The notes beneath the pieces were generated by a model. The model was not told where the DNA came from. It ran no database searches and saw nothing but the letters and a program-made list of their open reading frames with translations. Source: Bacillota bacterium (GTDB lineage: Bacteria > Bacillota > Sulfobacillia > Sulfobacillales > Sulfobacillaceae). From it: 32,235 nt of DNA. The position numbers and the translations under genes are program-made. Where the stretch lies: the NCBI GenBank assembly GCA_023512105.1, contig JAIMAE010000019.1, positions 1 through 32,235 on the forward strand. Direction: 5' to 3'. Below are positions 2,852-7,803 of the stretch, piece after piece; the first letter of the stretch is position 1; each line of letters begins with the position of its first letter.

Positions 2852-3526
2852 GTGGCCACCGTGATGAAGGCGTTGCCTCCCGACGAACGACCGCGGGAAC
2901 GACTGTTGCGCCACGGCCCGGCGGTGCTGGGGGACGCGGAACTGTTGGCGGTGTTGCTCGGGCAGGGGACTTTTGGCCAGTCCGCCCTCGATTTGGCGCG
3001 GACGCTGTTGCAGGATGGCTGGGCGGCGCTGCTGCAGCGCAGTCGCACCGAGCTGATGAAGGTGCGCGGGCTGGGACCGGCCAAGGTGGCGGTGCTGCTG
3101 GCGGCTTTGGAGATCGGGCGGCGGCTGCGGGTGGACAGCCACGGGCGCACCATCGGCGGCCCTCACGACGTCTTGCCCTGGGTCGAGGACATGCAGTGGC
3201 TGAGCCAAGAGGAGTTTCGGGTGCTGTATTTAAACACCAAGCACCGCGTGTTGACGGTGGAGACCGTGTTTCGCGGAGGGCTCGACAGCGTCGAGGTGTT
3301 CCCGCGCGAAGTGTTCCGACGGGCGGTGGCGCATTCGGCGGCGGCGGTGATTGTCGCCCACAACCACCCCAGTGGGGATCCCAAGCCCAGCCCGCAGGAT
3401 CGCGCGCTTACCGACCGCCTGGAGCAAGCGGGCACGATACTGGGCATCCCGGTGTTGGACCATATCATTGTTGGACATGGGCGCCATATTAGTCTGAGGA
3501 ACCATCAGGTGACGGAGCTGAGATAG
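2852..3526 (+). CDS. radC: RadC family protein (JAB1/MPN metalloprotease fold)
   Basis: A 224-residue RadC protein. The N-terminal half contains a helix-hairpin-helix DNA-binding element ([19 protein letters not shown]). The C-terminal half holds the JAMM zinc motif [14 protein letters not shown]. The GTG at 2852 is chosen because GGGGAAG ends five bases upstream; an in-frame earlier ATG at 2810 would overlap maf and adds non-conserved residues. The cellular role of RadC is unsettled: older DNA-repair claims were not upheld, and the family resembles metal-dependent proteases or nucleases. Its place between maf and mreB is conserved across Bacillota. Confidence 0.92.
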
Positions 3527-3542
3527 GAGGACGGTTGTCGGC

Positions 3543-4577
3543 ATGTTTTTCAAATCCTTATATGGGGCCTTCTCTCGGGATATGGGGATCGACCTCGGGA
3601 CCGCCAATACGGTGGTGTTCGTCAAAGGCAAGGGGATCGTCCTGCAGGAGCCGTCGGTGGTGGCCATCGACCAGATGACGGGGGAGATCATCGCGGTCGG
3701 GCAGGAAGCCAAGCAGATGGTGGGACGCACTCCCGGGAACATCCGGGCGGTGCGGCCGCTCAAGGACGGCGTGATCGCCGACTTCGACATCACCCAGGCG
3801 ATGCTCAAATACTTCATCCATAAGGCCGTCCCCAATATGCGCTTTTTTCATCCCTTGGTGGTGATCGGGGTTCCCTCCGGCGTCACCGGCGTCGAAGAGC
3901 GAGCGGTCCGCGACGCCGCCATCCAGGCCGGGGCCCGAGAGGCGTTGGTGGTGGACGAACCGATGGCGGCGGCGATTGGCGCCGGGCTGCCGGTCAACGA
4001 GCCTACCGGCAACATGATCGTCGACATCGGCGGCGGAACCTGCGAGGTGGCCATCATCTCCCTCGATGGCATCGTCACCTCCAAGTCGATTCGGGTGGCC
4101 GGGGATGAGATGGACGAGGCGATCGTCAATCACATCAAGCGCACCTACAACATGATGATCGGAGAGCGCACGGCCGAGGAGGTCAAGATCACCATCGGCT
4201 CCGCCTATCCGCCGGACCATGAAGAATACATGGACGTGCGCGGCCGCGACTTGGTCACGGGCCTGCCCAAGACCTTGAAAGTCAACTCGACCGAGATTCA
4301 ACGCGCCTTGGCCGAGACCATCAACCCGATCATCGACGCCATCAAGGCTACCTTGGAGAAGTCACCGCCCGAACTTGCGGCCGACATCATGGACCGCGGG
4401 ATCGTGATGACCGGAGGCGGTTCTCTCCTGCGCAATTTTGACAAATTGGTGAGCGCGGAAACCGGGATGCCCGTGCACCAAGCCGAAGACCCGTTGTTGA
4501 CGGTGGTGCGGGGGACCGGGATGGTCCTGGAAGACCCTCATCATCTCGCCGCCCTGCGGCGACGCAACCGTAGGTAG
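3543..4577 (+). CDS. mreB: Rod shape-determining protein MreB
   Basis: A 344-residue bacterial actin homologue that forms filaments under the membrane and guides the elongasome. The phosphate-1 loop DLGTANT is at residues 17-23. DIGGGT forms phosphate-2 at about residue 160, and [12 protein letters not shown] is the adenosine motif. The N-terminus [13 protein letters not shown] is amphipathic and fits the membrane-binding segment known in other MreB proteins. Start ATG 3543 is preceded by AGGAGG at a somewhat long distance of about 12 bases. mreC follows after a 38-base gap, in the normal mreBCD order. Confidence 0.97.
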
Positions 4578-4615
4578 AAGACTCGTCGGCGAGCGGGCCG
4601 CCAGGAGGGGTGCGG

Positions 4616-5491
4616 ATGGGGGGGCTGTGGCAGCGATGGCGCCGGCCCGTGGTCTTGCTGTTGGTGATGGCGGTGGTGACGATGAGCCTAAGTTTCACCG
4701 CCCAGATGCGGGGACGACTGGTCAGCCTCTCCGGCCTGTTCAGCTGGGCGACCGCTCCCGTGGAGACCGGCTTTTCCGCGGTCGGCCTTAACGTCACCCA
4801 GGCGGTGTACCAGGGCCGTCAACTGTGGCGCCTGAACGCCGAAAACGCCCGGTTGCGGCAGGAGTTGGCCAGCTACAACAGCCTGCGCGCCGAGCTCGAC
4901 CAGGTCCTGGCCGTCAACGACCAGCTGCGGGCGGCCCTGGGGCTCAAGGCCCAGCTGGGTCAAACCCAAGGGTGGCGCCTGGTCACGGCCTCGGTGATCG
5001 CTCGCAACCCCGACACCTGGTTTGACACCGTGGTCATCGACCGGGGAGAGAACAGCGGAGTCCGACCTGGCATGGCGGTCATCGTCCCCCAAGGGGTGGT
5101 GGGCCGGGTGGTGTCGGCCACCCCCAACACCGCCACGGTGATGCTGCTGTTGGATCCGGATTCCGGGGTGGGGGCGGTCGACGTGCGCTCGCAGGCAGCG
5201 GGGATCGTGCGGGGGCGCGACCCGGTGTCTGGCACCCTAAGTTTCCAGCTTTTCTCCCACCGGCCGGACATCAAGCCGGGCGATGTGGTGGTCACCTCCC
5301 AGTTTAGCCAGTACTTCCCCGCCGGCCTGTTGATCGGGCAAGTCGCGACCGTGCGCCCCACCCAGTTCGGCCTGACGGTGACGGCCACGCTTGAGCCCAG
5401 CGTGCATTTTGATCAACTGGGCTGGGTCACGGTCATCGAACAGTTTCCTCCCGGCGCCGCGGTGCCGCCCCTGTACGGAGGGGGCTCCTGA
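4616..5491 (+). CDS. mreC: Rod shape-determining protein MreC
   Basis: A 291-residue bitopic membrane protein that scaffolds the elongation complex. It has one N-terminal membrane helix (about residues 10-28), a coiled-coil stretch with NAENARLRQELASYNSL, and a C-terminal beta-rich domain with VIARNPDTWFDTVVIDRGENSGV and the MreC hallmark GMAVIVPQGVVGRV. The ATG at 4616 is preferred over the GTG at 4610 because CCAGGAGG (4601-4608) lies seven bases before it but only one base before the GTG. The stop overlaps the mreD start by one base, implying coupled translation. Confidence 0.94.
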   Translation: MGGLWQRWRRPVVLLLVMAVVTMSLSFTAQMRGRLVSLSGLFSWATAPVETGFSAVGLNVTQAVYQGRQLWRLNAENARLRQELASYNSLRAELDQVLAVNDQLRAALGLKAQLGQTQGWRLVTASVIARNPDTWFDTVVIDRGENSGVRPGMAVIVPQGVVGRVVSATPNTATVMLLLDPDSGVGAVDVRSQAAGIVRGRDPVSGTLSFQLFSHRPDIKPGDVVVTSQFSQYFPAGLLIGQVATVRPTQFGLTVTATLEPSVHFDQLGWVTVIEQFPPGAAVPPLYGGGS

Positions 5492-6003
5492 TGCGCTGGC
5501 ATTCGCGCTTCATCCATTGGCTGTGGTTGGGGGCGGCCGCGCTGGTCCTTAAAACCTCGCTCTTGCCCTATTTCTTTCCCAGCGGCTACGTGCCCGACCT
5601 GGTGCTGGCCTTGGTCGCGATTTTGGCCTTTTACGAGAACTGGCCGCGGGGACTGGCGATGGGGCTGGTGTTGGGCCTGCTCCAGGATCTCTGGGCCGGT
5701 CGCTTAATCGGTCTCAATGCCTTCACCTTTGCCTTAGTGGGGGGTGGGGTGGCGTACCTGCAGGCCAAGCTGGTCCACGACCGTCTGTTTGTGCCAGGCC
5801 TGTTGGCCGGCCTGGCGGCGGGGTTTGCCGGGCTCTTGGACGGCGTGCTGCTCCACCTCTCGCCACTAGGCCTCTCCTGGGATACCGCGCTGGCCCCGTT
5901 GCCCTACCGGATTTTGACCACCATGTTGTTGGCCCCCGCCTTTGGCCAAATTTTGGGGTTAAAACCGGAGGTGCGCGTCGACTATCGTCGTTCCCACCTC
6001 TAA
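5491..6003 (+). CDS. mreD: Rod shape-determining protein MreD
   Basis: A 170-residue, highly hydrophobic protein with about five predicted membrane helices, as expected for MreD, which partners MreC in the elongasome. It starts with a short basic segment, and the region around YVPDLVLALVAILAFYE matches the family's conserved PDL element. ATG at 5491 overlaps the mreC stop by a single base. Sequence conservation in MreD is low, so the call relies on hydropathy, size and position. The next gene begins after 166 bases, so minC may have its own regulation. Confidence 0.88.
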   Translation: MRWHSRFIHWLWLGAAALVLKTSLLPYFFPSGYVPDLVLALVAILAFYENWPRGLAMGLVLGLLQDLWAGRLIGLNAFTFALVGGGVAYLQAKLVHDRLFVPGLLAGLAAGFAGLLDGVLLHLSPLGLSWDTALAPLPYRILTTMLLAPAFGQILGLKPEVRVDYRRSHL

Positions 6004-6130: not shown

Positions 6131-6169
6131 TCTGTAAGTTGGTGACGCTGGATGGAGGAGGCGCCGAGG

Positions 6170-6685
6170 GTGGCCAAACGGAGAACGGGCGAGTTCTTTC
6201 CCGACTGGGCGGGGAACGGTTCGGAGCCGGAGGCTGGCGGCTTCGGCTCATCCGGGTTCCATCGCGCCTCGGGTCGAAACCCGGTGGGGGAAGGGTGGCA
6301 GGGACGGCCATCCGAAACCCCTGACTGGTATGAAGAGGCGCGGCGACATCCGACGGTCTTGATCCGGAGGACCTTGCGCTCCGGGCAGACGGTGCGATTT
6401 GCCGGCAACGTGGTGGTGCTGGGCGATGTCAATCCTGGGGCGGAGATCACCGCCGGTGGGGACATCGTGGTCATGGGTTGGCTGCGCGGAGTGGCCCACG
6501 CCGGGGCAAGGGGGGATCAGCGGGCCATCGTCAGCGCCTTTCGCTTGGCTCCGACGCAACTGCGGATTGCCCATCTCATCGCGCGGGCGCCTGACGCGGG
6601 GGAGGATCACGTGCCCGACGTCCCCGAATATGCCGAGATTCGCAATGGACAGTTGGTGATCGACCGCTGGCCGGCCAGCCGGTGA
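6170..6685 (+). CDS. minC: Septum site-determining protein MinC, lacking a normal N-terminal domain
   Basis: A 171-residue protein whose C-terminal ~105 residues are a clear MinC C-terminal beta-helix. It contains TLRSGQTVRFAGNVVVLGDVNPGAEI, DIVVMGWLRGVAHAG and FRLAPTQLRIAHLIAR. This domain dimerises and binds MinD. The first ~60 residues are Gly/Arg/Pro-rich and look disordered, with no recognisable MinC_N domain, the part that inhibits FtsZ. The GTG at 6170 is chosen because GGAGGAGG (6154-6161) sits eight bases upstream; an ATG at 6152 would overlap that site and lacks one of its own. No missing N-domain was found in the other frames upstream. The minCDE order supports the identity. Confidence 0.88.
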   Translation: MAKRRTGEFFPDWAGNGSEPEAGGFGSSGFHRASGRNPVGEGWQGRPSETPDWYEEARRHPTVLIRRTLRSGQTVRFAGNVVVLGDVNPGAEITAGGDIVVMGWLRGVAHAGARGDQRAIVSAFRLAPTQLRIAHLIARAPDAGEDHVPDVPEYAEIRNGQLVIDRWPASR

Positions 6686-7518: not shown

Positions 7519-7803
7519 GTGGGGAGATCGGTGTTTGACTTGCTGGCCCGGGTTTTCGGCCGCGAGGAGTCCAGCAAAACCGTGGCCAAGGAGCGGCTGC
7601 GGTTGGTGCTGGTTCACGATCGGACCAGCCTATCGCCGGAGACCCTGGAACATCTCAAGGACGACTTGCTCAAGGTAATCTCGGAGTACCTGGAGATCGA
7701 CGACCACGGGTTCCGCGTCGACGTGGCCCGACAAGACGACTCCATGGCCCTGGTGGCCAACATCCCCGTGAAGTGGGTGAAGCGGCCAACGCCGGGCAAC
7801 TGA
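7519..7803 (+). CDS. minE: Cell division topological specificity factor MinE
   Basis: A 94-residue MinE. The N-terminal amphipathic segment FDLLARVFG is followed by VAKERLRLVLVHDR, the conserved MinD-contact helix/strand, and a C-terminal dimerisation domain with LLKVISEYLEID. MinE stimulates the MinD ATPase and drives Min oscillation. Its presence suggests oscillation rather than a purely DivIVA/MinJ-anchored system. A second in-frame GTG at 7531, with GGGGAG just upstream, would give a start VFDLLARVFG that also fits the family, so the first four residues are uncertain. It ends the mre-min cluster; about 217 bases follow before rodA. Confidence 0.93.
   Translation: MGRSVFDLLARVFGREESSKTVAKERLRLVLVHDRTSLSPETLEHLKDDLLKVISEYLEIDDHGFRVDVARQDDSMALVANIPVKWVKRPTPGN

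Follow-up and report, generated by a model that had tools for sequence, protein, structure and literature searches.

A min operon MinC without the FtsZ-inhibitory domain, and an unlinked full-length MinC that may complement it, in a Sulfobacillaceae genome

The window examined here, by which we mean the whole stretch of 32,235 nucleotides that was analyzed, carries a min operon whose MinC lacks the N-terminal, FtsZ-inhibitory domain MinC_N. The bacterium is related to Sulfobacillus and comes from a hot spring. The same genome has a second gene with a MinC_C domain, minC2, which lies on another contig, is unlinked to the min operon and encodes a full-length MinC. The presence of this second gene solves most of the puzzle posed by an operon MinC that is devoid of the inhibitory domain. 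We propose that MinC has been subfunctionalized, with the operon copy acting as the MinD-binding subunit and MinC2 acting as the source of the inhibitory N-domain. The partnership is one that we infer from sequence, and we give this reading a probability of roughly 0.6.

In model species, MinC_C dimerizes and binds MinD via the RSGQ motif, MinC_N binds FtsZ and shortens FtsZ filaments, and MinC_C, when joined by MinD, can bind the tail of FtsZ as well (PMC6803595, PMC3618327). The gene order in the window is mreB-mreC-mreD-minC-minD-minE-rodA, where mreB and rodA were assigned by sequence and position. The features of the locus and minC2 are as follows.

3543..6003, + strand: mreB-mreC-mreD, directly upstream of the min operon
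6154..6161, + strand: ribosome-binding site GGAGGAGG of short minC, from the sequence; the sister genome has the same layout
6170..6685, + strand: short minC, the operon copy (171 aa, MinC without MinC_N); GTG start at 6170, stop codon ending at 6685
6170..6346, + strand: N-terminal tail of short MinC, residues 1-59, predicted to be disordered and unconserved in sequence
6323-6340: DWYEEA, residues 52-57 of short MinC, which fits the family-level DWxxEA patch
6362..6661, + strand: MinC_C beta-helix domain, residues 65-164 (Pfam PF03775, E 4.4e-33; PDB profile match 4V02, E 4.9e-29)
6377..6388, + strand: RSGQ motif, residues 70-73, the MinD-contact motif (role from PMC6803595)
6712..7515, + strand: minD, intact
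7519..7803, + strand: minE, intact (Pfam MinE, E 1.6e-24)
Contig C99 of the same genome (G000), 61340-61999 (3341-4000 of locus L033): minC2, full-length MinC with MinC_N and MinC_C

The GGAGGAGG site is spaced 8 nt from the GTG codon of short minC, and homologues share the start point, which reads M/V/L-(A/G)-(R/K) and is preceded by a good ribosome site; the start codon is not fixed in four sequences of family f2. The open reading frame, its coordinates and the start at 6170 that were given in a preliminary description of this DNA are right. Short MinC scores 108 bits with TIGR01222, for which the cut-off is 95.25, and MinC_C is its sole Pfam domain, with residues 1-59 having no match of any kind. 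The same description regarded minD and minE as intact, which agrees with the Pfam match of MinE and with the one MinD of the genome that scores above the family cut-off. A second MinD dedicated to MinC2 was rejected, no other MinD scoring above that cut-off. The C-terminus of FtsZ is DDLDIPAFLRRRS, an intact tail peptide of the usual kind.

The lack of MinC_N in short MinC is confirmed by three approaches that concur. Pfam PF05209 (MinC_N) is documented as blind to the MinC_N of Gram-positive bacteria (PMC3618327), so that failure to match it proves nothing by itself, and the model, which gave one chance match in this genome (E 1.6), was set aside as the sole test for the domain. A custom HMM was built instead from the N-domains of related full-length MinC proteins, and it matched none of the 31 operon copies of the order, nor any of 28 short operon copies taken from outside it. 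The same HMM matched 31/31 second copies, all of which were in its training set, as were the positive groups in general, so their 100% is not an independent result. In profile-profile comparisons with a MinC_N profile, the family of short MinC reached a probability of 0.1%, versus 93% for the paralogue family. In the AlphaFold2 model of short MinC, residues 1-50 have a pLDDT of about 46-51, a single short helix spans residues 53-59, and the first 60 residues show no MinC_N fold; the C-terminal third of the model is also of low confidence, and its details were not used. A MinC_N domain hidden in the tail is ruled out by the HMM, the profile comparison and the structure prediction, and the earlier view of this protein as a MinC without a recognizable FtsZ-inhibitory domain was borne out. 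The 166-nt gap after mreD, which had been described as free of other-frame remnants, holds no MinC_N remnant in any frame when inspected by eye.

The preliminary description had raised the possibility that another protein inhibits FtsZ in this lineage and had suggested searching for a second minC-like gene. The search found minC2, and the possibility is supported, with the unlinked full-length paralogue as the likely protein. A profile of minC2 from 28 relatives aligned with the full-length MinC of Thermotoga maritima (1HF2) over positions 2-203 (E 8.5e-30). AlphaFold2 predicted for MinC2 (mean pLDDT 86) a beta-beta-alpha-beta-alpha-beta N-domain and a beta-helix C-domain, and Foldseek placed the model closest to 1HF2 (E 1.2e-13), then to MinC_C structures and weakly to E. 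coli MinC_N (4L1C). The lone match of Pfam MinC_N_1 in the whole genome is at minC2 and is weak, with an E value of 0.08, whereas the sister genome gives 1.7e-5. MinC2 scores 90.8 bits with TIGR01222, just below the cut-off of 95.25. Pfam MinC_N and MinC_N_1 each recognized 11/28 paralogue sequences versus 0/28 operon sequences. Membership in the FapA beta-solenoid family was not supported, the match to PF03961 scoring 27.7 bits against a gathering cut-off of 31.

The minC2 locus is syntenic with that of the sister genome. A gene for a DUF2103 protein lies downstream at 29/31 loci and is the only widely conserved neighbor, and the nearby ThrE, GtrA and glycosyltransferase genes are uninformative as to the role of minC2. 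In other lineages the neighbors shared by the second MinC genes differ from those in this order. Divergent from minC2 on contig C99 is a MerR-type gene (L033:2535-3140, - strand) whose product has a long C-terminal part that appears by eye to be a coiled coil; such a neighbor is also present in the sister genome (L066, 3788-4375) and is lacking from the rest of the 31 minC2 loci. Beyond MinC_C, MinC2 continues into a conserved tail (L033, about 3941-3997), in which a short helix is predicted at residues 201-208 with moderate confidence, and short MinC has no C-terminal tail of this type. In Aquifex aeolicus, MinC carries an additional helix at its C-terminus that touches MinD (PMC6771821, PMC5548801).

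Short minC and minC2 occur together in 30/33 genomes of the order, the exceptions being two genomes in whose assembly one gene was not found and a third that is 71% complete and has neither. Among named relatives, Sulfobacillus benefaciens MAGs are the nearest. Within the order, minD adjoins all 31 operon copies and none of the 31 second copies. The same arrangement extends to other Bacillota, for which relatives were picked by C-domain similarity only and then sorted by the presence of the N-domain in the operon MinC. A second MinC, unlinked to the operon and with a clear N-domain, was found in 26/28 non-Sulfobacillus genomes whose operon MinC is N-less (these include Carboxydocella, Desulfofundulus, Desulfotruncus, Pelotomaculum and Desulforamulus), versus an unlinked full-length second MinC in 1/29 with a full-length operon MinC (Fisher p 8e-13, from plain counts that reflect few independent events). 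As a rough check, an even sample of 249 genomes from the phylum was used, in which a short frame was defined as 175 aa or less, longer frames being able to hide short proteins; among the matches listed, two MinC_C genes were present in 26/31 genomes with a short frame versus 37/175 others.

A phylogenetically controlled pairs test yielded one pair on well-supported branches, too few for significance, and is under-powered, since a domain as short as the C-domain leaves the tree poorly resolved. On the poorly resolved C-domain tree the N-less state needs at least 6 changes, and a single ancient split is a scenario for which the tree shows no one origin of the N-less copies, nor does it exclude one. 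Since the count is strong but the independent changes are few, we regard the tie between an N-less operon MinC and a second full-length MinC as well supported and the repeated origin of the arrangement as unproven.

Our model begins with short MinC, whose gene shares an operon with minD and minE and which retains only the C-domain, for dimerization and MinD binding. Membrane-bound MinD would recruit both short MinC and MinC2 via their RSGQ motifs, and the two MinC proteins would share MinD either as mixed dimers or as alternating members of MinCD assemblies. With one MinD in the genome, both are expected to compete for it or to share it. The C-domains of both proteins could dock on the FtsZ tail, and MinC2 alone would deliver the N-domain that disassembles filaments, so that the ratio of short MinC to MinC2 might set the strength of Min inhibition. 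The unlinked position of minC2 means that co-expression of the two genes is not implied. A wider version of the model, in which two obligate MinC subunits act on one MinD and their ratio tunes FtsZ inhibition in many Bacillota, with MinC_C-only systems in a few lineages, is one that we offer tentatively.

The two genes differ in how selection acts on them. Relative to the sister genome, dN/dS for short minC is 0.026 in the C-domain and 0.67 in the tail, and for minC2 the N-part has a value of 0.155 and the C-part one of 0.206 (Nei-Gojobori, one sequence pair each, with high dS). The C-domain of short MinC is thus strongly constrained and its tail weakly, and minC2 is under moderate constraint throughout. 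Mean C-domain identity follows the same direction, being 0.73 for short MinC versus 0.57 for MinC2 in this order and 0.64 versus 0.41 in other lineages. The RSGQ motif is retained in 30/31 operon copies and 31/31 second copies of the order. Such a split in constraint would be expected if the short copy were mainly responsible for binding MinD and for scaffolding, and MinC2 for FtsZ inhibition.

An alternative, which we consider rather unlikely, is that the two MinC proteins are separate tools. Short MinC with MinD would then be the inhibitor of vegetative growth; at the FtsZ tail it would compete with the tethers of FtsZ and prevent bundling, and MinC2 would be kept for another time, such as asymmetric division in sporulation or stress. 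Overproduced MinC_C with MinD does stop division in E. coli (PMC6803595, PMC3618327), and the intact FtsZ tail peptide and the unlinked position of minC2 would suit such an arrangement, as would the genomes in which an N-less MinC is the only one. The E. coli C-domain alone nevertheless requires overproduction, the neighbors of minC2 (DUF2103, ThrE exporters and a glycosyltransferase) point to no special process, and the tie between loss of the N-domain from the operon copy and its retention elsewhere suggests that the same job continues to require the N-domain.

No second MinC could be detected in the following genomes with an N-less operon MinC: G033, G034, G199, G057, G059 and four of family f100. 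Pfam MinC_N_1 and A3, a profile of N-domains that was derived from other Bacillota, gave nothing convincing in these genomes; the A3 profile also misses MinC2 in G000 at E 0.1, so the absence is no proof. Lineages without a detectable MinC_N indicate that a partner is not necessarily required by short MinC in every case. Candidates for Min systems with MinC_C only are found at loci L015, L044, L121 and L126 and in genomes G199, G277, G300, G321 and G342; in all of them the N-less MinC is a neighbor of minD, and neither a second MinC nor a MinC_N match was found in the genome. Such lineages would serve as a test of whether MinC_C alone can position division.

It is also conceivable, with a lower likelihood than the use of the two proteins as separate tools, that short MinC is a negative regulator that competes with MinC2 for MinD and so limits inhibition. 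A protein that shares an operon with MinD and has the MinD motif but no N-domain would be suited to that role, although displacement is already done by MinE, and the sequence does not separate a regulator from a partner of MinC2.

The preliminary description had further suggested that the short N-terminus inhibits FtsZ by a new mechanism. This is very improbable for the present genome, as the tail of about 60 residues is predicted to be disordered (low pLDDT), is weakly constrained (dN/dS 0.67) and varies among relatives, in which its length is about 24 to 79 residues and it aligns poorly. The DWxxEA patch before MinC_C is the one conserved part of the tail and the feature that speaks for a functional element, but it is conserved within the family only and is absent in sister families. 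The earlier suggestion that this MinC is a co-polymer partner of MinD and nothing else is compatible with the data if short MinC is half of a two-protein system; that the genome still encodes a MinC_N was not visible in the DNA on which that suggestion was based. Finally, the draft genome is in 404 contigs, yet a frameshift, wrong start or binning error can be dismissed, given that the start is conserved, that the minC2 locus is syntenic with the sister genome and that the N-less architecture is found in 31/31 operon copies, several of them in closed genomes and some in genomes of 1-2 contigs (G005, G017, G023 and G026); the frameshift that was looked for as a refutation is absent.

Short MinC resembles the canonical MinC proteins of E. 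coli, B. subtilis and T. maritima (1HF2) in its MinC_C beta-helix, its RSGQ motif and the location of its gene beside minD and minE, and MinC2 aligns with 1HF2 along its full length. Canonical MinC is one protein with two domains, whereas here the operon copy has the C-domain only and the second gene has both. In domain content short MinC is the same as the artificial MinC_C constructs that, with MinD, block division when overproduced in E. coli (PMC6803595, PMC3618327), but those are laboratory truncations and short MinC is the product of a natural, strongly conserved operon gene. In the MinCD co-polymers of A. aeolicus (4V02) and Pseudomonas aeruginosa (6RIQ), the domain that builds the filament with MinD is MinC_C, which short MinC shares, and the N-domains hang flexibly off the filament (PMC6771821). 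A corresponding assembly in the present system would differ in bearing N-domains on its MinC2 members only.

A search confined to the open-access literature yielded no account of MinC proteins that are paired or naturally N-less, and this widespread form of the Min system, with two MinC proteins, is, as far as that literature goes, undescribed. It is debated whether the two domains of MinC have to be part of the same polypeptide to act, and likewise whether co-polymers of MinC and MinD are of importance in the cell. The natural and old separation seen here, with the MinD-binding part alone in one gene and the whole protein in another, allows a test in living species. There is also a consequence for annotation, as the family models call both proteins MinC and thereby hide the difference between them.

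Two further observations concern other division genes. The DivIVA gene of this genome (G000:C112:16420-16761, L255) matches its family with an E value of only 4.6e-5, compared with about 1e-45 in five relatives, and either the gene has diverged or the true gene is absent from the assembly. A class-level relative with a full-length operon MinC also encodes, at L055 (G036:C140) and with no minD nearby, a very divergent full-length MinC-like protein.
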